Source: Polytrichum commune (Eukaryota; Streptophyta; Polytrichopsida; Polytrichales; Polytrichaceae). Taken from it: a DNA stretch of 64,000 nucleotides. The DNA is taken from assembly GCA_950295325.1 (NCBI GenBank), contig OX485803.1:28272001-28336000 (forward strand), written 5' to 3'. The notes under the pieces were generated by a model, which made no database searches, had not been told where the DNA came from, and was given only the letters and a program-made list of their open reading frames with translations. The translations under genes were made by a program, and so were the position numbers. This document shows positions 12,516 through 48,245 of the stretch, piece after piece; the first letter of the stretch is position 1; the number at the start of each line of letters is the position of its first letter.

Positions 12516-15500
12516 TTATTCTGGTAACCTTGACAAGGATAAACAACCACTTGCATCGAAGTCTACAAGACTTTGTAGTTCCCCCAAATCCTCTGGAAGT
12601 TCTTTCACTCCTGAGTATGATATGTTTAGAACTTTCAACTTCGTGAGCCCACTGATAGATGTAGGTAGGCTTTGAAGGCGGCCACAATGAGCAAGGTCCA
12701 ATCTTTCCAAGTTTGGCAACTGACTGAATGAATCCGGTAACTTTGACAAAGATAGACAACCACTTGCATCGAAGTCTATAAGACTTTGTAGTTCCCCAAA
12801 ATCCTCCGGAAGCTCTTCCACTCCTGAGTACCATATGTTTAGAACTCTCAACTTCGTGAGCCCACCAATACATGTAGGTAGGCTTTGAAGTTGGCCACAA
12901 CGAGCAAGATCCAATCTTTCCAAGTTTGGCAACTCACCCAATGACTTTGGTAACCATGACAAGGAAGAACAACCAAACGCTTTGAATACTACAAGACTTT
13001 GTAGTTTCCCAAAATCCTCCGGAAGTTCTTCCACTCCTGAGTGCCATATATCTAGAACTCTCAACTTTGTGAGCCCACCAATAGATGTAGGTAGGCTTAG
13101 AAGGCGGCCACAACGAGCGAGCTCCAATCTTTCCAAGTTTGACAATTGACCAAATGAATCTGATAACTTTGACAAAGATAGACAACCACTTGCTCTGAAT
13201 TCTACAAGACTTTGTAGTTTCCCAAAATCCTCCGGAAGTTCTTCCACTCCTGAGTATGATATGTTTAGAGTTCTCAACGTTGTGAGCCCACCAATCGATG
13301 CAGGTAGGCTTTGAAGCTTGCCACAATGAGTGAGATCCAATGTTTCCAAGTTTGGCAACTGACCAAATGATTCCGGTAACTTTGACAAAGATGGACAACC
13401 ATTTGCTTTGAATTCTACAAGACTTTGTAGTTCCCCAAAATCTTCCGGAAGTTCTCCCACTCCTGAGTCCGATATGTTTAAAATTCTCAATGTTAAGAGC
13501 CCACCAAGAGATGTAGGTAGGCTTTGAAGGCAGCCACATCGAGCGAGGTCCAATCTTTCCAAGTGTGGCAACTGACCAAATGATTCCGGTAACCTTGACA
13601 AGGAGGAACAATCACTTCCATTGAAGTCTACAAGACTCTGTAGTTTCCCAAAATCCTCTGGAAATTCTTGCACTCTTGAGTACGATATATTTAGAACTCT
13701 TAAATTGGTAAGCCCACCAATAGATGTAGGTAGGCTTTGAAGGGGGCCACAACGAGCGACGTCCAATCTTTCCAATTTTGGCAATTGGCCCAATGACAAG
13801 GAGAAACAACCACTTGCATTGAAGTCTACAAGACTTTGTAGTTTCCCAAAATCCTTCGGAAATTCTTGCACTCTTGAGTACGATATGTTTAGAACTCTCA
13901 ACTTGGTGAGCCCACCAATAGATGTAGGTAAGCTTTGAAGGTTGCCACAAAAAGCGAGGTCCAATCTTTCCAAGTTTGGCAATTGACCCAATGATTTTGG
14001 CAACCTTGACAAGGAGGAACAACCACTTGCATTGAAGTCTACAAGACTTTGTAGTTCCCCAAAGTCCTCCGAGAGTTCTTGCACTCCTGAGTCCAATATG
14101 GTTAGAATTCTCAACATCGTAAGCCCACCCATAGATGGAGGTAGGCTTTGAAGGCAGCCACAACGAGCGAGGTCCAATCTTTCCAAGTTTGGCAACTGAC
14201 TGAATGACTTTGATAACTTTGACAAAGATAGACAACCACTTGCTTTGAATTCTACAAGACTTTTTAGTTTCCCAAAATCCTCCGAAAGTTCTTTCACTCT
14301 AGAGAACGATATGTTTAGAACTCTCAACTTCATGAGCCCACCAACACATGTAGGTAGGCTTTGAAGCTGGCGACAACCAAGGAGGTACAATGTTTGCAAG
14401 TTAGGCAACTGACCCAATGATTCCGGCAACCTTGACAAGGATAAACAATGTCTCGCCTTGAATACTACAAGACTTTGTAGTTTCCCAAAATCCTCTGGGA
14501 GTTCCGTTATTGTTGAGTCCGATATGTTTAAAACTCTCAATTTTGTAAGCCCACCAATGGATGTAGGTAGCTCTCGAAGATTACAACATCCTTCGAGGTT
14601 TAACATGTGCAACCTTGGAAACAGAGTCTGCAACATAACAACCACATTCTTGTGAGGTTTTTTTTATTCAGTTATGGAAAATGAAAAATGGCAACAAGAC
14701 CAAGTGAACCATGAAGATAATAAACATGCAAATAATTTATATCAACAATTACTCTATCATTGTAGAGCATATCAATGGGCAACCCAATTATGACTTATAC
14801 CAATTTTAATCTACTCATTCCAATCTAGGAATAGAGAATTAAGATGCAATATAGGAAATAATACACCTACTATTTTCTTCATAACCACTTTTACTCATAA
14901 AACTCTTACAACAAGTTTTTCATCGAAACCCACATAACTAGACTTCATTACGTCATCTCTTCAATACATAAAACTCATTTTTTTTATTTTTAAGGTTCAC
15001 AATCAATGCATCAAGTTCAATGAGACTTTTACCTGTATTTCAAAGTCTTTAGGCCAAATACAATGAAGGTGTTTATTGTATGCAAGATCCAACACGATTA
15101 AGTTGGGTAATTGCAAATCCTTGGGCAACTCAATGAGATTCAAATGCCTCCATTGCAACCATCTCAATTCCCTTGACCATTTTGAAAAATCGCCTTCCAC
15201 ATCACAATCTTCCAATATGAGAATTCGGAGTTCATTCAAACTTGCAAACTGTTCAGCTTGCCAAATTGCTTCAATTCCGTTTCCTCTTTTTTGAATTCCA
15301 CTTGTTGTGAGTCCTCGCACTTTTTCAGTACCCTGCGAGACAAACCTGACATATATAAACAAACTCCTTTGTTGCAAAGTACTTAATACTCGTTATACCT
15401 TGGAAACAAGTACTACTTATCATTTGTGCATCAAATTGTTCCATAAACATCAACTAAAACATCTATATGATTACTCCTCTTAGCTAGGTTTTATTATATT

Positions 15501-17460
15501 CTTAACATAACTATCCTTCCAACAAATAAGTTGCCTTTATTCTTGTGCACAATGATACATGTGTTGTGAGTCAACATAAGAGATTTCAAGGGAATTTGAT
15601 GACATGGACAAATACATGTGGTAAATATGTCAAGGTCGTCAAGATTGTTACCTTGTTTTGTTCAAGAACTTTGATGACAGATGAAGGATTGCACAAGTGG
15701 CTTTGCTCCCCTTCATTCCGTGGTGATTTCTTCATGACCACATCACGTCCCATGTCTCGCAAAAGATCATGCATAGTAAGGAAACCATTCTCATCCACCT
15801 TAAGTAGACACCTATCAATAAGCTTGCACAGTGATGTAGATGCTGGGCTAAAGAAATCATCTGAGTTCCAAAAATCCAATGCCGCGTCCTTTGGCGCACT
15901 CACAAGAAAGAAGGCTATATCCAAAAACATTTCTTGTTCAACTTCACCAAGACTAGTGTAGCTCAATTTGAGACAATCCAAGATATCTTTACACTTGTGG
16001 AGTGATGTGATTGCCTCATACCATAATGTTTCATCCCCCTTTTTGTCAAACAAAAACCCTCCAATAACTTCCAATGCTAAAGGTAAGCCACCACATGCCT
16101 TTGCTATGTGACTTGACAAACCATGAAGTCTAGCACTTGGAATATCGTCGTGAAAGGCACTCTTCATAAAAAGTTGTAGAGAATCTAATGGGCTCAACAC
16201 TTGCACCTCGAACAACTCCTTCTCTCCAGCATCCCTCATTATGTTGTTCAATAGGTTTTGATCGCGAGATGTGATCAACACTCGACTCCCTCCAGCAAGA
16301 TTATTCATATCTGGTATAAGCTCATCAAATTGACTACGTTTTACAATGTTATCAATGACTACAAATATTTTTTTATTCTTGATTTGCTCAAAACAACGCT
16401 CAAAACCACCAATCTTTTTCATATCCTCTTGTAGCAAGTCCCACACCATTTTTGCTTTAAGATTCTCCATGTTTGCATCCTTCACATCCTTCAAAAAACT
16501 TCGACAAATAAAATTGTTTTGTTCATTGTATACGTGTGTGGCAAGAGTCGTTTTACCAATCCCTCCCGTGCCAGTTATGCCTACAACACCCACAATCTTG
16601 CCCATTTGATTCAAAATGTCCAACACCGGCTTCGATGATTGCTCTAAACCCACCGGGTACCGCGCAGTACGGAGTTGAGCTGGGGCAAAAGCCATCAAGA
16701 CTCTAGCCACAATATCTTTCACGAGTGCAAATTCATCTCTGCGACCCCAAATATCCATTGGAAATCAATGGGATACAACACATTGTACAATTCTATGAAC
16801 ACATCACTAAGCAACCATAAATGATGCAATATTAACAATTTTGAACGTCTAATCGAATTTTACACTAAGCATTTATAGAGGTCCATGCGGTGCTTACTTG
16901 TACTGAGAATGTTGAAATCCTGTAAGATAAGAAGCTTTCAATAGGGCACTCTTCCACCTCTTTACATCCTCGTGTCGTTTTTTTCCCAAGTGTTTTTTAA
17001 AAGCATCAGCAAAGGGTCCACTTTCGATCCACCGAAGATGCTCAGGCTCAACGTCTTGAAAAAAAACGGGGATAACCTTCTCGGGGCTTTTCATCATATC
17101 AAACAGCTCATTAAGACAATATTTCGATTCAGCATAACCCTTAGAGAAGATTGCCAAATGCACACGAACCCCATGGAGAGCTTCATTGATCGACTTCAAG
17201 GCATGATTCCCCTTAATAAGAGATTTAGCATCCAAAAATGGATGACAACCACGTAAACGAAGTAAACCATACAAGTGAGAAACAAAAGAACGTTTTACAT
17301 CCGGTCCGCGGTGGTTCAAAAAAACATTATAACAACCCAATGCCTCTGGGCTCAAATCTAGTGAATCAAGCTCCATCACGTAGTTGACATCCTCCGTTTC
17401 GTTTTTCATTTTGTTTTTGTTTTTTTCATTTTCAGATGAAGCACTCCCTCTGTTTCCCAT
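12516..17460 (-). CDS. TIR-NBS-LRR immune receptor (TNL), four exons, possibly 3'-truncated
   Basis: Intracellular pathogen-sensor family. Exons: 17460-16898, 16738-15652, 15332-15033, 14648-12516; the first intron is phase 2, the others phase 0. The spliced frame is continuous, 1360 codons. Exon 1 is the TIR domain (about residues 43-180; FLNHRGPDVK, SH at 61-62, catalytic-type Glu118 in YCLNEL). Exon 2 is NB-ARC: P-loop GTGGIGKTT at 244-252, kinase-2 FVVIDN at 313-318, GSRVLITSR at 338-346, GLPLAL from 405, MHD at 510-512. Exon 3 (GTEKVRGL start) is the linker. Exon 4 is LRR. The exon 4 acceptor could also be at 14627, in frame. Kinase-2 has IDN for the usual LDD. The start MGNRGS fits the N-myristoylation pattern MGxxxS. 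A GTGCAG acceptor 10 bases upstream of the ATG suggests a 5'UTR intron. The stop at 12516 is a nonsense change inside the tenth LRR unit, so the C-terminus is probably truncated. Confidence 0.88.
12519..14570 (-). repeat. LRR array: ten 213-bp units, three LRRs each
   Basis: Each unit encodes 71 residues: LPTSIGGLTKLRVLNIS..., LPEDFGKLQSLV.F.A.GC..., LP.SFGQLPNLERLDLA.CG.... Units start at 14570, 14357, 14144, 13931, 13733, 13520, 13307, 13094, 12881 and 12668. The fourth unit lacks 15 bases in phase, removing RLPKS-equivalent residues at the start of its third LRR. The tenth is cut by the stop. Near-constant length and high identity suggest expansion by unequal crossing-over and conversion. 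Because 213 is divisible by three, other frames also stay open in places, producing spurious long ORFs. Confidence 0.93.
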
Positions 17461-19560
17461 TTGGATTGTCCTGCACCGATAATATCATAAATGTATCCAT
17501 AAACCAAATAGAGAACACAATTCCAACTTTATTTAGATCCTCATGATGGATCGAAATCATATGTGCACGAACCTCATTACCATATTGTTGCTAGAGAAAT
17601 AGCTGGTACAACCCTCCTACATAATCCTCTTCTTACAAACCCCAACACATCATTGTCACAAAGTGAATGATGTCATTGACTTCACCATGTACACATGTTT
17701 GTGGGGCATACACCTACAACCCCTAAACCCCACAAATGCCTCAACATCTTAATATTGTGTCTCCATTGCATTCCAATAAGGTAGGTTTATTGAAAGGTCT
17801 AACATTACATTTTACAAGAATTAATCTTACTCAAATTTATGTCCTTAGTAGTTGGATGATAACAATTTATAAGAAACCAAAAAAAATTCGTCACATAGAA
17901 ACCTATTAGTTTGTACAACCATTCATAAGATCATTCCTAGCCCATTCTCAATACTCGGACTATCACCAGCAATTTGAACCGTAATGTGAAACCACTAGGC
18001 AACACAAACTAAGTGACTACTAACATCAAGGTGAAATCATGATACAAGAAGATGAGCTAGAAGTAGAAGGAACTTGGATACACTCACTTGATTGGCTACG
18101 TAGTCTCCTTCCAAGGGTCAAATTGGAAATTGGAATCGCTAATAGTTGGATAATGTTGTCATCACCCCATTGTTTTTGAGAAAATCCAAAATACTATATG
18201 CTTTGTAGCCAACTTCAACATGCAAAGCGTGTTGCCCTTTGATTTTACAAGATACATGAGGATGAGGATGCCCCAAAAAATTAATTACAGCTTCCCTGCA
18301 ATCAATCACCAAAAAAAACGATTGTAATGAAATGCCTAAAAATAGATTGAAATAACACTTTGATCAAACATCAATCCAAAAGAACCGCAAATTGGAGAAC
18401 TTGTTTTAAATGATCCAGAAGAAGCTTGTAATTGGCTTAAAATGACTAATTGACACTCAACAGTTTTTTGAAAACCTAACACCTCAAGGGATCTGTTGGG
18501 AGTGCGACACATGACCAAAAAAAAAATCACCAAAAAGGTTGCTAGACTAGAAATTGTTCCGCATAGATTTTGTCAAAAGTGTACCAATGAACCACATAGA
18601 CAACAAAACTTCAACTCCATGTACATCCTCATAATAGATTGATAGATTTCATACATGCATGGACCTACTTACCATGTGCAAAAACCAACACCACAGTCAT
18701 CTCAAAAACAAACAACCCCAATCCACAAGAATTGTTGCTAGAGAAAGACCCGGAACAACCCTCTTGTCGGCACCCTTCTTACAAACCCCAAAACATGTAT
18801 TGCCACAAAGCGAATCATTGAGTTAACCATGAACACACATCATACTCCACAATCAAGAGGAGGCGTTTTGATCCCTATATCCCAACAAGGGCCTCAATAT
18901 CTAAAAATTGAGTCTCTGCATCCCCATAAGATAGGTGAATTGAAGAGTTCAAGAGGATATTTTACACAAATAACTCTTACTCCTATTAAATTTGTTCTTC
19001 ATAGCTCAAAATATAATAATTTACAATATTACCATAAAATAATGACAAGAATATTCGTGCCAATTATCTAATGAAGCAAAGAAACCACATGCAATCCAGG
19101 ACTCCCTGCACATACTTCAGCACTTTGGAAATTGTTGCAGATCCCTCAATAGCAAGTCTCTCCCAAAAACTCCAAAGAAAATCACCGCACTACAATTATG
19201 CTTCCGGATATGTATAAAACTAATAAAGAAGTCACCATGGATGATCCTCTTACATCATAAAGACTTTTGTCCACAATTATGTACAGTTCACACACCTGCT
19301 AGATGTCCAACACTTCACATGGACAGAGGCAAAACAAAAGCCCGAAAAGGATAACTAAAACAAGGCAGTGTTGGCCTAGGGTGGCAACAACTGGGATATA
19401 TTACAAGGGTCCTCGGATGATAAGACCATTTCTGAGCTAATAATAATTCTATAATAATGTATTGAAGAGTTGTTATAAAACACGTCAAAACATGAGTTGG
19501 ACCATAAGGTACATGGGTGTAATTTGGTTCGTTTTTCATGTTCTCCAACTTTCACCAATT
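16329..19560. repeat. Segmental duplication, copy A, block 1
   Basis: Matches 42890-48245 in direct orientation. It starts inside the NB-ARC exon, just after kinase-2, and covers the TIR exon and 5' flank. Copy B carries three extra TIR units and its right part is rearranged. Non-coding parts differ by about 10% by eye. Flank 17461-19060 has no recognisable complete gene apart from the exon-like block listed separately. Confidence 0.85.
18088..18295 (-). other. Exon-like block upstream of the TNL gene (copy A)
   Basis: Flanked by an acceptor (GATTGCAG) and a donor (AATCAAGTGAGTG) that are both conserved in copy B at 46856-47061. One frame is open for about 50 codons (VINFLGHPHPHVSCKIKGQH, then LHVEVGYKAYSILDFLKNNG) before a stop. 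I do not recognise the protein. It could be an untranslated exon spliced to the TNL exon 1 acceptor, or the last exon of a lost upstream gene. The open frame is shifted in copy B. Confidence 0.35.
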
Positions 19561-35844: not shown

Positions 35845-36210
35845 CTTCAGGCATGTGGGTGTTATCTGGTTCATTTTTCATGTTCTCCAACTTCTACAAA
35901 TTAGATTTACACAACAAAACTTGTTTGCATTAGTAAATCTATGATGAGACGTTTACAAAAACCAGATTGAAATTTGGACCTTCCCTGATTTAGTTACAGT
36001 TATCAGAAGTGCATGTTTGTTGATGTCTTAACCGGATACACATGTCCTCCCAATTGTGTTCACTATTGAGTGAAGAGTAGTTATTAACAGTTGAAGATGT
36101 GGTTCAATCTCTTTTAAACATTTGTTCTTATGATGTTTGCTCTTCGATCCTCACCGATCTAGATACCAATGAAATCCAGGGGTCGAATTAAGAAAATGAG
36201 CCACTTAAGA
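35845..36210 (+). repeat. Dispersed repeat R2, plus orientation
   Basis: Starts AGGCATGTGGGTGTTATCTGG, continues TTTTTCATGTTCTCCAACTT and GTGCATGTTTGTTGATGTCT. Same family as 19495-19840. The copy at 63910 is cut by the window end. Confidence 0.65.
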
Positions 36211-36286
36211 CCCATCTACCTAAATAGGACAGATGTATTTGAATGGTACAATCCACTCTCGATATGTGTTAGAGTCAGTTTTCATG

Positions 36287-36314
36287 TAGGCCGCTCGCCC
36301 ACCAGAGCGGCCTA
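36287..36314. other. GC-rich hairpin
   Basis: TAGGCCGCTC pairs perfectly with GAGCGGCCTA across an 8-base loop, and the pairing extends outwards with a few mismatches (GTTTTCATG against TATGTGGAAAC). Probably part of an old MITE. Around it, 36211-37116 shows no gene, only repeated AAGTGTTAA motifs. Confidence 0.6.
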
Positions 36315-37116
36315 TGTGGAAACTAACCCTTTCCCTGATAAGTGTTAAAATCGCATGTGTGTTAAGGAAAATTGCATTTCCCCCAAAACATTCAAAAATG
36401 CAGTGCAAAGTGTTAATTGTTAATTGTTAAAAAAAATCATGCTCCCCTCTTCTATGAACTCAGCTCGATAAGTGTTAATTTGGATGAAAGCGAGGCTATA
36501 ACATTTTATAACTTGGATGAAATTGACAAAATCCTTAATCCTAAATCCTACTATCTAAATGGAACAACTAGCATTGGTACATGCAAAGAGTGAAACTAGA
36601 CCCATTATAAATGCACATGTGTTCATCGATTATAAATTGGAATTTGATCTTCACAATCCCTACATACCCATCGAGGAGGAAAATATAAGTAAATTAAACA
36701 ATAAAGAAGTTCATTGAAGAAGTTCACAATATGCCAATTGGTGATGTGATGGTAGATAAAGTAGGATTCAAGGATGTTGAAAGTGCATTAGTGACCTTCA
36801 AACAATTCTCGGAACAAAGACCTACTAATGTTTGACTTCTCTAGAACATTTGAACGAACACTTTGAAAGAAAATAGGATCTTGGCATGCACAAAATCATA
36901 TCAAATTACTATAGATTTGTTCTTCGATTACATTAAGATGTATGATGACATTCATATCTTATTACTTTCATCCTTTATTTATAAATGCTATTGTTTTAAT
37001 TATGTAGTCACATAAGTGGTATTCATGTAAGTGTTACAAATTGTCTATGCTACCCCCAAAAAGTCCTAATGTGTTAACACCACATAAGTGCTACAAGTTC
37101 CCTTGCTCCAAAGTGT

Positions 37117-37137
37117 TAACATATATATATATATATA
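37117..37137. repeat. AT dinucleotide microsatellite
   Basis: About ten AT units just left of the R3 copy. Confidence 0.85.
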
Positions 37138-37139
37138 GG

Positions 37140-37560
37140 ATGGAATGTATGTGGTTTGGTGTAGCTCCAAGAACGGACACCAAAAAGACATTTGTTTACA
37201 CAAGATTGGATTGTTTGCTCAAAAATATGATAATTATTCTAGGTTCAATAGTCCACATAATTCGGGGACCTATATGACCATTTAGGGAGCACGATAATCT
37301 TCAATATGATAATGAATAAGATATTCATATTAGCTCCAAAATTTATGAGTAAAGTGTCTAAAGTCTCAAATTGGATTTGCTAACCATTTTGTACATAATG
37401 CATATTTCAGAACATGAGAGAAGTGGGCTAGTCACAAAAAGTAACCCTTCAAGACATGTATACCCTAATAACAATGGATTTACATTAGGGTATGGGTCCA
37501 AGACACCCCTAGAGTATACTTTACATTTGGACTCGAAAGTGGATCATTGGACACAAGCTT
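37140..37560. repeat. Dispersed repeat R3, second copy
   Basis: Shares GGTGTAGCTCCAAGAA, GAATAAGATATTCA and GAGAAGTGGGCTAGTCA with 7490-8060 in the same order. Non-coding. Confidence 0.5.
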
Positions 37561-37737
37561 GAAGCAATTTAGGACGAGTATTTCCTTGAGTGGGGACCGT
37601 CAAGATTTGGTGGGAATGTGATATCACATTAGTGCCACTTCATTTTTCCATACCTTGACTAGAACTTTAGTGTTAAACATTTGTTTTCATAGACATTCTC
37701 AGCCAAGAGGAAAGCTCAATGCGAGAGTTTCTTTGGT

Positions 37738-38250
37738 TTGGACCCTAATGTGCACACACCCCATGTTTTCATATTAAGGTTTAAGTTTATCACTTATGAA
37801 ACACAAATTGGTGGGTGTGAAAGATTAACAAGAAAATCACGAGGGAATCATTTTTTGTTGGCCCTCCATCCAAGGGGGGAAACAACCTGGGAAAATCACA
37901 AAAACAAATCATGGGAGAGTGTTGGACTCATGAACATGTATAATGTGGTTGGAGTCACACCAATCACATACTTAGAATTCGGAGTGTTGATCAACATCAT
38001 CTCCAAGGAGGACATCACTTATTGTGTCACAATTGGCGATGTCCCGCATTGCATGTGTTGTGACTTCACAATAATAACATCTCAAGCATTGGGAAAGAAA
38101 AGAAAAAATGGGTGTATTGCAAGCATTTTCATACTGTGTTCATATTTTTGCGCAAGGTAGATTACAACAATGACAACTTCATTCATGCGTTGACATTCAC
38201 CTACAACGAGGTCATACAATTACTCGAACGTGCCGGTGTTGTAGAGTGTG
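37738..38250 (+). pseudogene. SWIM zinc-finger protein fragment, frame-broken
   Basis: The open part reads ITYCVTIGDVPHCMCCDF, then SQALGKK. After a one-base frame change it continues as WVYCKHFHTVFIFLRKVDYN and FTYNEVIQLLERAGVVE. CxC followed by CxH is the SWIM zinc-binding signature found in MULE transposases and FAR1-like and related plant proteins. The N-terminal part (DPNVHTPHVFILRFKFITYE) is open but unassigned. The frameshift within the finger, at about 38105, makes this a pseudogene or an exon fragment. No transposase catalytic domain is visible nearby. Confidence 0.65.
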
Positions 38251-38271
38251 AATAATGTTCCCAATATATGC

Positions 38272-38526
38272 TCATCTACATGTTTAAGAATGTTAATAAG
38301 TGACATGTATTGGTGTGTATTGTTATAATAAAATTCAACAATGGGTTGATAGTTTTTCGAGTACCCATGGTAATAGGCCCCTTCACTCTTATCATTTATG
38401 TTCATCTACATGTTTAAGAATGTTAATAAGTGACATGTATTGGTGTGTATTGTTATAATAAAATTCAACAATGGGTTGATAGTTTTTCGAGTACCCATGG
38501 TAATAGGCCCCTTCACTCTTATCATT
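38272..38526. repeat. Perfect tandem duplication, 130-bp period
   Basis: 38272-38396 is repeated without a difference at 38402-38526, with TATGT between. Identity means a very recent event or an assembly artefact. Confidence 0.97.
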
Positions 38527-39843
38527 CAAAATGTTAGTACTCTAAAATGGTAAAATGACAAATGAAGGAGTGCCAAACTTAGCATATGGACTTTCTAACC
38601 GTTGGTATTTACTAAATTAGGCATCGTTGTTCACATGTTACTACTCATGTCTTAGCTTCCCTCGTGTTGCTAGTCTACATCTAGAACTAATATTTATTAT
38701 TTCTATCATAGGGTTCACCAATACAAGTGCACATATACATTTTCATTATGTCCATATTCTTGCATAAGTCTAGATTTACTTTAAACATTTAATAAGTGTG
38801 TATGTACAAGTTGCGGGTAGGGCTAGGGATTTGTATACGTATTGGGTGTCTTTACTTTGGAGATGTTTATTTGTTTTCCCATTTTGATGAAGATAGTATG
38901 AAGACTTTATATATTTTCATTTTCATGATTTTGGATACATCTCACATTTCTACAAATACATCTCTTGAATTTGGAAACATGGATTTGCACTTTAAAAACA
39001 TAGCATGTCCAAATGAGGTCAAATCACAAAGGACCTCAAGTGCTCAATGTCCACCGCAAGCCTATTAGAATCATTATTCTCCTATTAGAAAGTGTTTGCA
39101 AGCTTAGACACATGCAACTTACAACCAGTTCATGTCCTTGTTCTCTATCAACAAAGAGAAATGAAAGAGAAATAAATGCATGTCTACACATGACTCTACC
39201 CATGTTGTAAATTTGATAATAAATAAAATACCCTTTTGTATTAATAATTCCTAGATTGCGTCATCATATATGGTAACTACACCTGTTTGTGATCCTTATC
39301 CAAAAGTTTCTTCTATGAAAACTTGCCTAAACATAATCTAAACATGACAATCCAAAATTAATTTTAGACACCCATGTAATCAACACATCTTCTTTATGTT
39401 TATTGATTTCATACGACATACAAAAGTACATGCTAAAATGCATTAAAATTCTATTATATTTGTGAATAAGATCCAATTTTTTTGAAGATCATAACTTTCA
39501 AATGATATTTAAGTTCATAAGTGTTTTGATGATGTTTAAAGGTGTAGTTACCACAACGGTTCAAGATAGTCTCGAGGTTGTATAAGTTGGCTCAAGGGCC
39601 TAAGTCTCAAGGTTGAAGCAATCGTTGAGTTTGTAATGAAATAAGGAAGTACAGCTCCCATTCACATCAGTGTAAACAACGCACTCTTATAATGTCATTT
39701 TATTTTATTTCATTTGTTATGCAAAGAATTCCACAGTTTTTTTTGGTCAGAAGTGGACTTTAAGAAGTACCTTTGCTTTGGTAAGGTACAAACAACAAAT
39801 ACAGTAGTAATAAGTTTCGTATGCAATGGTGTCCAAGCTAGGC
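38527..39843. other. No gene recognised
   Basis: AT-rich, with only short ORFs such as 38796-39068. No domain, repeat or RNA gene that I can support. Confidence 0.55.
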
Positions 39844-39846
39844 TAA

Positions 39847-40345
39847 GGGCCACTTCACACACGAGACTGAGAGCCGTGACCATTACAGTTCAAGCACTCT
39901 CATTGGTGGAAAAGGAGGAGCCGGTCTAAGTTTGCTTCACACTAGGCTTGAGGGACCAACGGAGTATGTGAATGCAAGATGGATGTAAAGTCTACATGGA
40001 CTTCTACATGGCATCGAATGGATCATGTTTCATGGTCATTTGGACTATTTTCAAAAACCACTGTTGGAGGTAGGCCTAACACAAAACCAAGAGACCATGG
40101 CACTCCGAATGCTCACAACCATTGGTTTATTTTGTTTTATCATGCATGAAGACTTGCATGAATAGAAATTCATTGAAATAGCATTTGGTTGGGGGTCTGG
40201 TCACATATGACTTCACACTATGCTTGGGGGTCCGTGACCACGCTACATGAGTTTGGAGGTGCCTTGGGATGGCCTTTTGGACACTTTCTTTTGGGTCTCT
40301 CACAATTTCATGGTCACGGCTCTTGGTGCGTGTGTGAAGTGGCCC
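39847..40345. mobile_element. Tourist-like (PIF/Harbinger) MITE
   Basis: Terminal inverted repeats begin GGGCCACTTCACACACG on both sides and extend to AGAGCCGTGACCAT. The 499-bp element is flanked by TAA at 39844-39846 and 40346-40348, the 3-bp target typical of this superfamily. No coding capacity. Diverged pieces with GGGCCA.TT and TTTCATGGTC occur at about 40698 and 42590-42790. Confidence 0.8.
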
Positions 40346-40962
40346 TAAGGGCTATATGCTAACCACCACAATGGATGCGATGACTTGGCTTAAATCATTA
40401 CCCAAAAATTGAAGAAGGTGTGGAGGGTGATGGGTAGATGTAGTGCTCTTTGTTAATTTGGGCCTCCACTAATTTTATTTAAGGTGTAAATGCAACGAAC
40501 TAAAATAAAACAAAACTACTTTCTTTGGTTTATTCAACTCCACAACTAACTTAAGAGACTACGCATTAGTATGAGACCCAATTATGATGAATCAACCTTA
40601 ACCTTATCACTCATTTTTATATGCACCAGACGCCATATACCACACGTTTGAGTACATTGGGCATGTTTTAGGTCTTATATTTTATTTCTAGAGACATGGA
40701 TGACTTAGGGCCATTTTGCATCATGGCCAAGGGGTCATGACCGTGAATTTGTGAGGGCCCTTGAAACTTGTTTGAAGGTCACATTAGAGAAAACTAAAAC
40801 CAAAATTTGAGTGGTCACATGCCTTTAAGTGAAGTGTAAACACATGTGCAAATGACTTCTCAAATAATTCCATTACCATCCTACTTCATATGAAGTTATG
40901 AAATATGAAGCATGTTGAGATTTTGAAATGTCATGGGGTCTCTTAGTTTTGTGTTAGGCCCA
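40073..40962. other. Overlapping long inverted repeat
   Basis: GGCCTAACACAAAACCAAGAG at about 40073 is mirrored by CTCTTAGTTTTGTGTTAGGCC at about 40935-40958. The left arm lies inside the Tourist-like MITE and the right arm outside it, so two element families are nested or chimeric here. Confidence 0.6.
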
Positions 40963-42889
40963 CTTACTTGATTTGGGCTCGACGAAAAATCTTGTTAGTC
41001 ATTATTTTTTTTAATCCAAAACATGAGAAATTACCATTGTCCCCATAATTGTGTGGGTGCTTGTGGGTAATTAATTGTAGGATGATAGGTGGAGATTAAT
41101 TCGTTTGGAGTCGTGTTCGACGAAGAAAAGGTATAGTATCAAGCAAAATTTTACCTCCAAAATGGATTTTCAGGTTTGAAAAAGTATATTTGCACAAGTT
41201 GTGCACAAATGTATAGAAGATGACCATGGGGGCTTCATATCTAGTTTACATATCCCACATGCATTATGAACAGTACTCCACTCCACTTGTAGAAAGGGTA
41301 GGGTTTTCCTCCCGAACTTCACATTGAATAGATGTGCATTATCGATGTCATAAACGAATTGAAGTGATCGCATAACATTATTCAATTTCTATCAAGCATT
41401 CCATTATAATAATATTCAGTGGCAGTGCTACATCCAAATCTCACTCGTTTCCCAGGTTGAATAAATCTAATGAAAAACATATGTAGAATATAATTCTAGC
41501 TCCTTAGATGATATATTCTCATGCCCACCCAACATGGTCACTTATCTTAATAAAGTTATGCATATTTTTAAGAAACAAATGAAATACTTGCGGACATATT
41601 GATGAGAATAATATTTAAGCATGTTGGCAAATTTTTCCGTTGATGGCCATCCTTGTTTCTAATGAGAAAACCTAAATGTGTGGCCTCGCCAAAATAATCA
41701 AGGTCATTGGAATCCTATGACATCCATTGTAAGACATGTAATATTCCATGTTGCTCTCCTAAACCATTTTGTATAAATTCCAATATCATTTTGGGTGACA
41801 TCCTACGAAACGAAGTGGAACCACCACTCGTTTCTCAACCAATGAGAGAATTTAGAAAATATTGGTCATGACCCTTGGTCATTGGCAGGGTCAAGTTCCA
41901 TGGAGCGAACTGGGCATCATGGTCCAAACTATTTTGTTGGCTTCATGAGTGAGGACATGATCACGAGCTTCATTGAATGCTTAATGTTGAACCCCTTCCT
42001 TTGGATTCGAAGGTCTTAGACTATGAGGTCCATTGACCATGCCACTTGTGTGGTCAAGTGAAATGAAAGGTTGTGATTGGAGGATAGCTTACATGTTACA
42101 TTAAAAAGGTGACTCTCTACCATTTGAATGGGGGGAAATGACGACAAAGTGCATACTGCACACATTCTCACCTCTTTTCATGGACCCTGCGAGTTTGTGA
42201 GGGCATGGAAGGGGAGGGGGTCTATAATGGAAGGGAACATTTCTAGGCATATAAAAATGCTTGCCACCCCCTCTAATGGAACTTGTTCCATAGATAACTT
42301 GTTTAGAACCATTTTTTTGACAAATGGTATTTTTGTTTAATAAATCTTGATAACTTTCAACACTCGTGCATATAGGTGACAAACAAAGTATGATAAGATT
42401 CTTGTAATATGAAACATGTCAATGCTTTAAACTTACTTTAAACTTTAAGAAATCTATAAGACTTTTCTATTGCACTAAAAAATGAGAGCATAAGGGGGTT
42501 TTGGCCTAAATTCAACCCCCAAATTTCAATTGACTCTATTAGGCAAGTAGTTGTTGTTGTTTGTTTTTCCTCCCTTTGAATCAATTGAGGCCACTTTACA
42601 ATAGAGCTTGAGGGCCCTTAACCTATAATATTCACATTATGCAATTGGTCAAGAAGCAAGAGACTGTCCAAGTTCACTTTACACTAGACTATTACGGCAT
42701 GTGGAGGGATGAAAGAGATTTGAATGGTTGAAAAATCTTCATGGAGCAACATTGATAACAAGTGGATATTGTTTCATGGTCTAATGGACATTATGTTAGG
42801 CCTTCCAAAAAGAAGTGGAATCCATGCAAAATTGGGGCCATTGCAAACAACTAATAAATAGCCATTGACTCCTACAAATACGATATTAC
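40963..42889. other. No gene recognised
   Basis: Non-coding, with weak traces of the MITE family above. The homology to copy A begins only at about 42890. Confidence 0.5.
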
Positions 42890-43301
42890 CATTGACTACA
42901 GTCTACAATGTCATCCACAACTACAAATATTGTTTTCTTCTTGATTTGCTCAAAACAACGCTCAAAACCACCAATCTTTTTCATATCCTCTTGTAGCAAG
43001 TCCGACACCATTTTTTCTTTAAGATTCGCCATGTTTGCATCCTTCACATCCTTCAAAAAACTTCAACAAGTAAAATTGTTTTGCTCATTGTATAGGTGTG
43101 TGGCAAGAATCGTTTCTGCCAATCCCTCCTGTGCCAATTATGCCGACGACACCCACAGTCTTGCCCATTTGATTCAAAATGTCCAACACTGTCTTCGATC
43201 ATTGCTCTAAACCCACCGGATACCGCGCAGGACGGAGTTGAGCTGGGCCAAAAGCTTCCAAAACTCTAGCCACAATATCTTCCATGAATGCATGTTCATT
43301 T
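42890..43301 (-). pseudogene. Truncated NB-ARC exon of the second TNL relative
   Basis: Aligns base for base with the start of the intact NB-ARC exon (16738-16329). Lesions: TCA to TGA at 43201-43199 right after PVGLEQ; one extra base in the P-loop (GGCAGAAACGATT for GGTAAAACGACT); and a TGA in the RNBS-A segment (ACTTGTTGAAGT). Homology stops just past kinase-2, which here reads FVVVDDIV. The rest of NB-ARC and all LRRs are missing. The first 34 codons remain open and form the last exon of the four-TIR gene. Confidence 0.88.
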
Positions 43302-46225
43302 CTGTGACCCCAAATATCCATTGGAAATCAGGACACAACACATTATATAATTCGATGAACATAACACCAAGCAACCATAAATGATGGAATGTTAACAATT
43401 GTGAACATCTAATCAAATTCTACACTAAACAATTATAGAGGTCCATACGGTGCTTACTTGTACTCGGAATATCGAAATCCTGTAAGATGAGAAGCTTCCG
43501 ATAGGGCACTCTTCCACCTCTCTACATTCTCGTATTGATTCCTTTCCAAGTGTATTTTGAAAGCCTTAGCAAAGGGTCCCCATTCGATCGAACGAAGATG
43601 CTCAGGCTCAACACCTTGAAAAAAGACAGGGATAACCTTCTCCGAGCTTTTCATCATATCCAACAGCTCGTTAAGACAATATATTGATTCAGCATAACCC
43701 TCAGAAAAAATCGCAAGATGCACACGAACCCCACAGAGAGCCTCGTTGATCGACTTCAAAGCGTGCTCCCCCTTATGAAGAGTTTCATCATCCAAAAATG
43801 GATTACAACCACGAACACGAAGTAAATTATACAAGTGAGAAACAAAAGAACGTTTTACATCCGGTCCACGGTGGTTCAAAAAAACATCATAATGGCCCAA
43901 TGCCTCTGGGCTCACATCTTGTGAATCAAGCTCCATCCGTTTGTTGACATCCTCCGTTTGTGTTTGCTCAAAAGCTTCCAAAACTCTAGCCACAATATCT
44001 TTCATGAATGCATATTCATCTCTGTGACCCCAAATATCCATTGGAAATCAGAGGGATACAACACATTGTATAATTCTATGAACAAATCACTAAGCAACCA
44101 TAAATGATGGAATGTTAACACTTGTGAACATCTAATCAAATTCTATACTAAACAATTATAGAGGTCCATACGGTGCTTACTTGTACGCGGAATGTCGAAA
44201 TCCTGTAAGACGAGAAGCTTTCCATAGGGCACTCTTCCACCTCTTTACATCCTCGGATCGATTCCTTTCCAAGTGTATTTTAAAAGCCTTAGCAAAGGGT
44301 CCCCATTCGATCGAACGAAGATGCTCAGGCTCAACACCTTGAAAAAAAACAGGGATAATCTTCTTGGGGCTTTTCATCATATCGACCAGCTCGTTAAGAC
44401 AATATTTTGATTTAAAATAACCCTCAGAAAAAATCGCAACATGCACACGAACCCCACAGAGAGCCTCGTTGATCGACTTCAAAGCATTCTCCCCCTTATG
44501 AAGAGTTTCATCATCCAGAAATGGATTACAACCACGAACACGAAGTAAATTATACAAGTGAGAAACAAAAGAACGTTTTACATCCGGTCCACGGTGGTTC
44601 AAAAAAACATCATAATGGCCCAATGCCTCTGGGCTCACATCTTGTGAATCAAGCTCCATCCGTTTGTTGACATCCGTTTGTGTTTGCTCAAGAGCTTCCA
44701 AAACTCTAGCCACAATATCTTCCATGAATGCATATTCATCTCTGTGACCCCAAATATCCATTGTAAATCAGTGGGATACAACACATTGTAGAATTCTATG
44801 AACAAATCACCAAGCAGCCATAAAAGATGGAATGTTGACAATTGTGAACATCTAATCAAATTCTACACTAAACAATTATAGAGGTCCATACAATGCTTAC
44901 TTGTACTCGGAATGTCGAAATCCTGGAAGACGAGAAGCTTCACATAGGGCACTCTTCCACCTCTCTACATTCTCGTATCGATTCCTTTCCAAGTGTATTT
45001 TAAAAGCCTTAGCAAAGGGTCCCCATTCGATCGAACGAAGATGCTCAGGCTCAACACCTTGAAAAAAAACAGGGATAACCTTCTTGAAGCTTTTCATCAT
45101 TTTGAACAGCTCGTCAAGACAATATGGTGATTCAGCATAACCCTCAGAAAAAATCGCAACATGCACACGAACCCCACAGAGAGCCTCGTCGATCGACTTC
45201 AAGAGATGCTCCCCCTTAATAAGAGTTTTAGGAGCCAAAAATGGATTACAACCACGAACACGAAGTAAATTATACAAATAAGAAACAAAAGAACATTTTA
45301 CATCCGGTCCACGGTGGTTCAAAAAAACATCATAATGGCCCAATGCCTTTGGGCTCACATCTTGTGAATCAAGTTCCATCCCTTTGTTAACATCCTCCGT
45401 TTTTGTTTGCTCAACAGCTTCCAAAACTCTAGCCACAATATCTTTCATGAATGCATATTCATCTCTGTGACCCCAAACATCCATTGGAAATTAGTGCGAT
45501 ACAACACATTCTATAATTCTATGAACAAATCACTAAGCTACCATAAATGATGGAATGTTAACACTTGTGAACATCTAATCAAATTCTACACTAAACAATT
45601 ATAGAGGTCCATACGGTGCTTACTTGTACTCGGAATATCGAAATCCTGTAAGATGAGAAGCTTCCAATAGGGCACTCTTCCACCTCTCTACATTCTCGTA
45701 TCGATTCCTTTCCAAGTGTATTTTAAAAGCCTTAGCAAAGGGTCCCCATTCGATCGAACAAAGATGCTTAGGCTCAACACCTTGAAAAAAAACAGGGATA
45801 ACCTTCTCGGGGCTTTTCATCATATCGGCCAACTCGTTGAGACAATATTTTGATTCAGCATAACCCTCAGAAAAAATTGCAAGATGCACACGAACCCCAC
45901 GGAGAGCCTCATTGATGGAGTTCAAGGCATGCTTCCCCTTAATAAGACGTTTAGCATCCAAAAATGGATTACAACCACGATCACGAAGTGATCTATACAA
46001 GTGCGAAACAAAAGAACGTTTTACATCCGGTCCACGGTGGTTCAAAAAAACATCATAACGGCCCAATGCCTCTGGGCTCACATCTTGTGAATCAAGCTCC
46101 ATCCCTTTGTTAACATCCTCCGTTTTGGTTTTCTTTTCCTTTTCGAATGAAGCACTTTGTTTTTGTTTTTTATTTGTGTCTTCATTTATTTCCATTTCGA
46201 ATGAAGAGCTCCCTCTTTTTCCCAT
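43199..46225 (-). CDS. Four-TIR protein: tandem TIR domains without NB-ARC
   Basis: Exons: 46225-45624, 45464-44901, 44741-44181, 44021-43458, 43301-43199. Introns of 159, 159, 159 and 156 bases, all phase 2, donor AA-GTAAGC and acceptor GTCACAG. The spliced frame is continuous, 797 residues. Exon 1 holds an MGKRGS start, a lysine-rich stretch and TIR1. Exons 2-4 each start DEYAFM(K/E)DIVARVLEA, the NB-ARC linker, fused in frame to (T)EDVNK(G/R)MELDSQDVSP and a full TIR. Exon 5 ends PVGLEQ-stop. YCL(N/D)EL glutamates lie at residues 131, 319, 506 and 694, where plant TIR NADases have their catalytic Glu. TIR1, 3 and 4 keep the SH pair of the AE interface; TIR2 has SY. Each copy also has an ATG (MDIWGH or MDVWGH) in the intron end, so separate single-TIR products are an alternative. 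Expression is unproven; it may be a pseudogene. Confidence 0.75.
43302..45464 (-). repeat. Tandem TIR exon-plus-intron units, about 720 bp x 3
   Basis: Unit boundaries taken at the acceptors are 45464, 44741, 44021 and 43301, giving 723, 720 and 720 bp. Introns as well as exons are closely similar, so whole genomic units were duplicated. Unit 2 lacks one codon (TQTD for TQTED). Confidence 0.92.
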
Positions 46226-48245
46226 TTGGATTTGCCTGCACCAATAATATCAAAAATGTATCCACGAACCATATAGAGATCACTATTTCCACTTTCTTTA
46301 CATCCTCATGATGGATCCAAATCATATGTGCAAGACGCTCATTACCATATGCAAACCAACACCAAAGGAATTGTTGCTAGAGAAGTAGCTCCTACAACCC
46401 TCCTACATAATCCTCTTCTTACAAACCCAAACACATCATTGTCATAAAATGAATGATGTCATTGACTTGACCATGAACCCACATTTATAGGGCATACACC
46501 TACTAAACCCCAACAAGTGCCTCAAAATATTGAGTCTCTATTGCATTCCAATAAGGTAGGTTTATCCACGTTATATTTTACAAGAATTCGTCTTCCTCAT
46601 ATTCATGTCCTCAATAGCTAGATGATAGTAATTTTATAGGAAACCAAATAAATTCGTCACATTGACACCTATTAGAATCTACAACCACCCATAAAATCAT
46701 TCCTAGGTCACTTTCAATACTCAGATTATGACCAAAAATTTGGAACTTGTAATTTGAAACCACTAGGCAACACAAGCTAATTAACTATTAAGAACAAGGT
46801 GAAATCATGATTCAAGAAGATAATCCAAGATTAGAAGGTACTAGGATGCACTCACTTGATAGGCTATGTAGTCTCCTTCCAAGTGACCAATTGGAAATTA
46901 GAATCACTACATGTTCAATAACGTTGTCATCACCATGCCATTCTTGAGGGAATCCAAAATATTACACACTTTGCACCCAACTTCAATGTGGAGAGCGTGT
47001 TCCACTTTGATTTTACGAGACATGAGGATGAGGATGCCCCAAAACATCAATTACATCTTCCCTGCAATCGATCACCAAAAATGAAGACTGTAATGACATG
47101 CCACACAAGAACCGCAAATTGGAGAACTTGTTTTAAATAATCCAAAGGAAACTTCTAAATGGCTTGAAATGAACAATTGAGTCGGCAAATTCTCTAAGAA
47201 CCTAACACTTGTAAGGATGAAATTATCTTGGAAGTCCCACATTTCACATGGACAAAGCACCAAAAAACTTCCCAGAGGGTTACTAGACTAGGGTAGTTCA
47301 ATGCTCCATCTGAATTGTTGTAATGAACCACATAGACAACAAACTTCAACTCCATGTATATCCTCATGGTAGATTGATAGATTTCCTACATGCATGAACC
47401 TACTTAACATATGAAAAAACCAACACCAAAGTCAACTCAAAATCAAACAACACCAATCCACAAGAATTGTTGCTAGAGAAAGAAGTGTAACAACCCTCAT
47501 GTAGCCACCCGTCCTCCACACCCCAACACATTTATTGCCACAAAGTGAATATGTCTTTGAGTTCACCATGAACAAACATCATACTCCACAATCAAGAGGA
47601 GGTATTTTGATCACATACGGGACCCTAAATTCCAACAAAGGCCTCAACATCTATAAATTGAGTCTATTGCATTTCGATAAGGTAGGTGAATCAAAGAGTT
47701 CAAGAGGATATTTTACACAAATTACTCTTACTACTATGAAAAAAAATTCTTAATAGCTCAAAATATAATAATTTACAATATTACCTTAAAGCAACGACAA
47801 ACATACTCAAAAGAAGCACTCCTTGACCTTCATTGAAGAAATACAAGGCAATTGGATGCACTCACTTGATTGGCTATATATTCTCCTTGAAGTGTGAAAT
47901 TCGAGTGAAAATCAGAAGGACTTTCGTTCACAATTAATGTACGGTTAACAAACCTGCCAAATGTCCAACAATTCACATGAACACAGGTAAAACAAAAGAA
48001 CCCACAAGGACTACTAAACAAGGGCAGTGTTGGCCTAGGGTGCCAGCAACTGGGATACACTCCAAGGGTCCTCACATAATAAAACCATTTCAGAGCTGAT
48101 AATAGTTCTATAATAATGTAATATAGAGTTGTTATAAAAAACTTCAAAACATGAGCTGGACCATAAGGTATGTGGGTGTTCTTTGGTTCGTTTTTCATGT
48201 TCTCCAACTTTCACTCATTGGATTTACACAACCAAACCCGTGCTA
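46226..48245. repeat. Segmental duplication, copy B, block 1 (5' flank)
   Basis: Matches 17461-19560 with about 10% divergence by eye. It includes the same GTGCAG acceptor 10 bases before the receptor ATG (AG at 46237-46236). The right part is rearranged: sequence matching 19265-19560 lies at 47940-48245, whereas sequence matching 19060-19260 lies at 49725-49925. Confidence 0.82.
46856..47061 (-). other. Exon-like block upstream of the four-TIR gene (copy B)
   Basis: Counterpart of 18088-18295, with acceptor and donor conserved. The frame open in copy A is shifted here by a 2-base loss near HPHPHVS, which argues for an untranslated exon or a dead gene rather than a coding exon. Confidence 0.35.

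Follow-up and report, generated by a model that had tools for sequence, protein, structure and literature searches.

A predicted four-TIR gene in the moss Polytrichum commune is probably the remains of a truncated TNL with an amplified TIR exon

In a 64,000-nucleotide stretch of the Polytrichum commune genome (the window, meaning the whole stretch of DNA that was analysed), we found a locus that places four TIR domains in one open predicted frame. At the sequence level this arrangement is real and unusual, being the only such array among at least 129 TIR matches in this genome. The locus is probably what is left of a truncated TNL whose TIR exon was amplified, now under relaxed selection and either a relic or becoming one, rather than a maintained tetrameric NADase.

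Results

Gene model and predicted products

Re-derived from the sequence, the four-TIR locus occupies 46225-43199 on the minus strand and consists of five exons with phase-2 joins, giving a single frame of 797 codons that holds four complete TIR domains and ends before the P-loop. The exons, junctions, codon count, TIR number and stop all agree with the model proposed in the first-pass annotation. Its parts are as follows.

45624-46225, minus strand: exon 1 (F1), 602 nt; start codon, N-terminal lysine-rich stretch and TIR 1
45465-45623, minus strand: intron 1, 159 bp, phase 2
44901-45464, minus strand: exon 2 (F2), 564 nt; linker (NB-ARC exon start) fused to TIR 2; the fastest-changing repeat
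44742-44900, minus strand: intron 2, 159 bp, phase 2
44181-44741, minus strand: exon 3 (F3), 561 nt; linker fused to TIR 3, the linker with one in-frame 3-bp deletion
44022-44180, minus strand: intron 3, 159 bp, phase 2
43458-44021, minus strand: exon 4 (F4), 564 nt; linker fused to TIR 4; with F1, the fewest private replacements
43302-43457, minus strand: intron 4, 156 bp, phase 2
43199-43301, minus strand: coding part of exon 5; linker as in sibling TNLs, with a premature TGA (43201-43199) before the P-loop

All four donors read AA/GTAAGC and all four acceptors TCACAG/A. A GTAAGC donor with a TC[AG]CAG acceptor is present in 18 of 18 TIR exons compared (four here and 14 in siblings), so the splice sites were not guessed from one locus; the start context of exon 1 is likewise common to the four-TIR locus and the siblings. 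A phase-2 intron separating TIR from NBS is given as a hallmark of TNL and TN genes in a passage of PMC3352924. Splicing and expression of the four-TIR gene are predictions. Searched against Pfam, the whole 797-codon protein gave four PF01582 TIR stretches (E=9.5e-119) and no NB-ARC above threshold. Three weak non-TIR rows were also returned; the PIN-like_DDX60 match (29.7 bits, cut-off 27), in which no single stretch was significant, is treated as a by-product of the repeated sequence.

The internal exons (564, 561 and 564 nt) are frame-neutral, and skipping would therefore yield isoforms with one to four TIRs: exon 1 joined to any subset of exons 2-4 and then to exon 5 stays in frame in 8 of 8 combinations, from 234 to 797 residues. 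Retention of intron 1, a phase-2 intron starting GTAA, would bring in an in-frame TAA and give a 201-residue single-TIR protein. Since none of the internal exons is needed to keep the frame, the four-TIR form would simply be the longest of several possible products.

A tandem array that implies one founding fusion

Self-comparison of the window and its alignment to a sibling TNL outlined two further features.

43249-46134, minus strand: tandem array, four copies of a 720-723 bp unit made of exon 1 end, intron and next exon start
45422-47808, minus strand: stretch common to the window's sibling TNL (16696-19056), 79.7%, with the 5' flank and exon 1 included

The units are 92-93% identical in DNA to one another over about 720 bp, which rules out chance as the source of the pattern. 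Tandem Repeats Finder, whose longest period is 500 against a unit of 720-723 bp, returned nothing on the array. Elsewhere in the window (38264-38526) lies a 133-bp direct repeat in tandem, 98.5% identical.

A linker-plus-TIR exon query against the genome recovered 14 further loci of the clade at 76-86% identity. These sibling TNLs gave one TIR exon apiece; the four-TIR locus, in contrast, has four and lacks a complete NB-ARC or LRR. Matches to the query began at residue 1 only in the three internal array exons and at residues 13-20 in the 14 siblings; the unit therefore begins inside exon 1, spans the intron and ends about 17 codons into the NB-ARC exon. Evidently, a segment comprising TIR exon, phase-2 intron and the first NB-ARC-exon codons was duplicated head to tail. 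Frame and splice phase are unbroken at both breakpoints, so each copy became a new internal linker-plus-TIR exon predicted to splice to its neighbours. The linker/TIR fusion junction is identical in exons 2-4, which implies a single founding fusion that later expanded to four copies.

The sibling TNL in the window (12516-17484) has a TIR exon, an NB-ARC exon and an LRR exon. It matches the four-TIR locus over 2.4 kb (79.7%) and then again over every repeat; the two share start region, phase-2 intron and 5' flank, and the sibling's TIR is 74% identical to F4 in protein. This TNL also has a near-identical copy ~540 kb away (G000:C1:27745431-27747245) with an NB-ARC exon 100% identical in protein, and by their sequence the pair is a recent duplication. 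Besides the two TIR loci, ORF pairs ~29-31 kb apart (21863/50911 and 24545/55189) connect the regions at ~12-25 and 43-56 kb of the window; their offsets suggest a larger segmental duplication.

Genome-wide, the PF01582 profile was run over the 407.8 Mb assembly (64 contigs), yielding the matches counted above. Same-strand TIR neighbours no more than 10 kb apart formed seven pairs, three of which are the four-TIR array. Two others, 196 and 248 bp apart, look by profile positions like pieces of one broken exon, and the last two, 6.1 and 7.6 kb apart, are known from spacing alone. No second tandem TIR array appeared among the at least 129 PF01582 matches in this genome. The conifer setting assumed in the first-pass annotation was mistaken: 407.8 Mb is far below the size of known conifer genomes, and on contig C6 a protein-kinase ORF directly precedes an NB-ARC, and the kinase plus NB-ARC class is described as moss-specific in PMC3352924, as excerpted. 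At that locus (G000:C6:36451500-36457500), ORFs for kinase, NB-ARC and LRR follow one another on a single strand, and ahead of the kinase lies a weak RPW8-like match below threshold.

The NB-ARC exon is broken and cut off

Downstream of the premature stop, two features mark the end of TNL homology.

42891-43198, minus strand: untranslated NB-ARC remnant; P-loop frameshift, second stop, then truncation
41689-42892, minus strand: dispersed repeat, with an edge at the point where NB-ARC homology stops

Three lesions mark the NB-ARC: a TGA shortly ahead of the P-loop, a frameshift of one base at the P-loop, and another stop. The remnant keeps TNL homology as far as 42891, and 42892 is where three further copies of the neighbouring dispersed repeat end. 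Past the repeat, searches of 36000-43310 and of the whole window found no further NB-ARC or LRR, and tblastn (E<=1e-3) gave no LRR match in the window besides the sibling TNL's. An intact NB-ARC reached through another frame or exon was ruled out by the stops, the frameshift and the truncation. Of the dispersed repeat there are two more copies of nearly full length (92-93%) plus a shorter one on C1; other contigs hold weaker partial matches.

The 13 private substitutions of the remnant fall 4/5/4 on codon positions 1/2/3 (22/21/35 for the other 13 loci pooled), an evenness suggesting that the remnant was unconstrained for most of its private branch. Its private divergence is 13/410, or 3.2%; the repeats' own branches measure 0.027-0.055. 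Across the clade, 4 of 15 loci have a broken NB-ARC exon and none of 15 a broken TIR exon, a difference that is not significant (Fisher p=0.10).

L001 (C1:27852116; G000:C1:27850500-27853400), the single-TIR locus most similar in protein, has an intact TIR exon and an NB-ARC exon with 7 stops and frameshifting insertions; its frame stops one codon from the stop of the four-TIR frame. NB-ARC private divergence there is 6/410 and 19/820, and TIR private replacement-to-silent counts (N:S) are 3:3. With NB-ARC divergence so low, the break is recent, and L001, despite looking at first like a long-conserved TIR-only gene, gives no evidence for a long-kept TIR-only state.

Substitutions in the repeats look like relaxed selection

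All four TIR exons keep open frames, with no stop and no frameshift. Their private substitutions look like relaxed selection with little sign of constraint. Private N:S is 25:4 for the array versus 37:31 for 12 siblings (Fisher p=0.003), with 3:0 in F1, 14:1 in F2, 6:1 in F3 and 2:2 in F4. F2 weighs heavily in this signal because of its 14:1 ratio; without it the array stands at 11:3 and the contrast to the siblings is not significant (p=0.14). Against a neutral expectation the array shows no departure (P=0.10) and the siblings do (P=0.0003). Pairwise dN/dS is 0.50-2.25 among the four repeats versus 0.35 among siblings (ratio of means, 90 pairs). Private rates in exon and intron are about equal in the array (29/1920 vs 10/633); the corresponding figures for the 12 siblings are 68/5760 and 39/1906.

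Private replacements at sites conserved with the sister subfamily are also more frequent in the array (16/21) than in the siblings (11/36; p=0.001), a contrast that weakens without F2 (7/10; p=0.033). F2 carries nine replacements at conserved positions, including D49A and H34Y, the latter losing a histidine conserved in the siblings and in RPV1/RUN1; F1 carries one, R115C. Under neutrality, the absence of lesions from the TIR exons has P=0.31 by private substitutions and P=0.07 by all 66 variable sites. Disabling events number 3 among 14 in the NB-ARC remnant versus 0 among 29 in the TIR exons (p=0.029, a comparison picked after seeing the data). Adaptive change would resemble relaxation in these measures.

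Because L013 is almost a copy of the window TNL (its NB-ARC exon matches at 100%), it was left out of the substitution, NB-ARC divergence and tree data. For the sibling counts of 37:31 and 11/36, L001 was also left out; L007 and L012 stayed in, although their NB-ARC exons are broken too. L014 and L015 were used solely as outgroup, in the conserved-site comparison.

Gene conversion disturbs the substitution counts. In a tree of core plus intron the four repeats stand apart from all others with support of 71, rising to 97 for the 3' part plus intron. The array does not come out as one clade from the intron alone or from the 5' 230 nt, where F1 groups with L010 (92) and F2-F4 with L002 (90). Conversion with siblings is the simplest reading of these mixed groupings; it blurs the substitution counts and any dating.

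Catalytic position and possible biochemistry

In each repeat, E90 falls opposite the glutamate of RUN1 that is replaced by A in PDB chain 7s2z_A, taken to be the catalytic mutant of RUN1. E90 is invariant in the window's five TIR exons, and all four repeats keep this presumed catalytic glutamate of the alpha-C motif. At a putative self-association surface position, H34 is kept in F1, F3 and F4 and is Y in F2.

A covalent TIR string is biochemically conceivable by analogy with three reports, each taken from part of its source. In a TIR-NLRC4 chimera, plant TIRs signal once they are forced together, yet both self-association interfaces are needed (PMC7414095); the RPP1 and Roq1 resistosomes gather four TIRs as two pairs (PMC10805603); and 11 of 20 non-flowering-plant TIRs gave cell death, so that TIRs from seed-free plants, which are said to lack EDS1, can be active (PMC11218826). 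The EDS1 profile PF18117 had no match in this genome, and its control matched nowhere either; RPW8-type matches numbered 10. The suggestion in the first-pass annotation that the protein could pre-assemble a tetramer gained no positive support, given the little constraint, the conserved-site replacements in F2 and F1 and the in-frame skipping of every internal exon. Such a tetramer stays conceivable, since all four repeats keep the glutamate aligned with that of RUN1 and carry neither a stop nor a frameshift.

Discussion

The locus is most likely an unusual product of birth-and-death evolution, perhaps still expressed. In an ordinary TNL, the segment from inside the TIR exon through the phase-2 intron to the NB-ARC exon start was copied in tandem, and the common junction implies a single linker/TIR fusion that then expanded to four frame-compatible copies. 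The NB-ARC gained a stop before the P-loop and more lesions and is cut off at the dispersed repeat, with no LRR left nearby. Transcription, if any, would give TIR-only proteins whose TIR number, one to four, depends on which exons are skipped or whether introns are retained. Constraint on the TIRs has probably relaxed, leaving a relic or a gene heading there.

Other readings fit parts of the evidence. That mis-assembly repeated a single TIR exon is barely credible: the locus is represented by a single assembly, but the repeats are 7-8% apart in DNA, with repeat-specific changes, and differences of several per cent disfavour an assembly echo. A much better case can be made for single-TIR output by exon choice, with the extra exons as passengers, through skipping from exon 1 to exon 5 (234 aa) or intron 1 retention (201 aa). 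We hold this to be possible, short of probable; all eight skipping forms stay in frame, intron 1 retention ends at residue 201, and the second-exon stop falls at codon 33 in L001 and codon 34 here, yet the donors and acceptors of the four introns are of equal quality, so that nothing in the sequence favours skipping. Alternatively, the array may have arisen within a working TIR-TIR-TIR-TIR-NB-ARC-LRR receptor that lost its NB-ARC afterwards. The private divergence of the remnant, of the same order as the repeat branches, fits such a history, and genes with two TIRs ahead of NBS-LRR are known in Arabidopsis and Fragaria (passages of PMC2175511 and PMC5806312); the even spread of remnant substitutions over codon positions speaks against it, and we regard it as unlikely.

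Less likely again is a maintained TIR-only gene, whose covalent TIR concatemer, its linked TIRs meeting at high local concentration, would form a paired NADase site without an NB-ARC wheel and act as a dose-amplified or low-threshold immune enzyme. Four open TIRs, the glutamate position kept in all of them, the kept splice sites and TIR exons free of lesions while the NB-ARC decays speak for this reading, and the chimera and resistosome reports (PMC7414095 and PMC10805603, in the parts cited above) lend it a biochemical basis. Against it stand the relaxed substitution pattern, the loss of H34 and D49 from F2 and of R115 from F1, and the probable harm of a permanently assembled NADase unless restrained. 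We judge a functional four-TIR concatemer to be improbable on the sequence evidence. More doubtful still is the fullest version, a natural single-chain four-TIR string that would self-assemble NADase sites instead of relying on an NB-ARC wheel and have its dose tuned by exon skipping, a minimal receptor-free signalling enzyme in a lineage without detected EDS1.

Compared with known architectures, the predicted product has TIRs and neither NB-ARC nor LRR, as do TIR-only and TX proteins such as RBA1 and BdTIR. RBA1 and BdTIR carry one TIR; the present product differs in having four, with linkers derived from the NB-ARC exon. Of the TNL features, the N-terminal TIR and the phase-2 TIR/NBS intron are present, and an intact NB-ARC and C-terminal LRRs are absent. 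TIR-TIR-NBS-LRR genes, of which excerpts report 2 in Arabidopsis (PMC2175511) and 24 in six Fragaria species (PMC5806312), also have head-to-tail TIRs in a TNL-type gene, but two of them and a full NB-ARC-LRR, where this locus has four TIRs and none of the rest. Dictyostelium TirE (PMC13142454, in part) and mollusc tandem-TIR Tolls (PMC4929906) likewise have more than one TIR per chain, but two each, in unrelated architectures. The TIR-NLRC4 chimera (PMC7414095, as excerpted) tests forced TIR proximity with an engineered ligand-gated wheel, not a covalent TIR string. No four-TIR plant protein was found among the matches listed in open-licence PMC literature, and the excerpts of PMC9519389 and PMC11126693 hold nothing on multi-TIR-only proteins.

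If the four-TIR protein proves to be produced and functional, it would be a ready means of asking whether plant immunity can be set off by TIR proximity alone, with no NB-ARC oligomer, in a plant group whose downstream signalling parts are little known. If the locus is a relic, it would be a clear case of a phase-symmetric TIR exon letting unequal crossing-over build in-frame immune architectures from a TNL, and would show how TIR-only genes can arise as NB-ARCs die.
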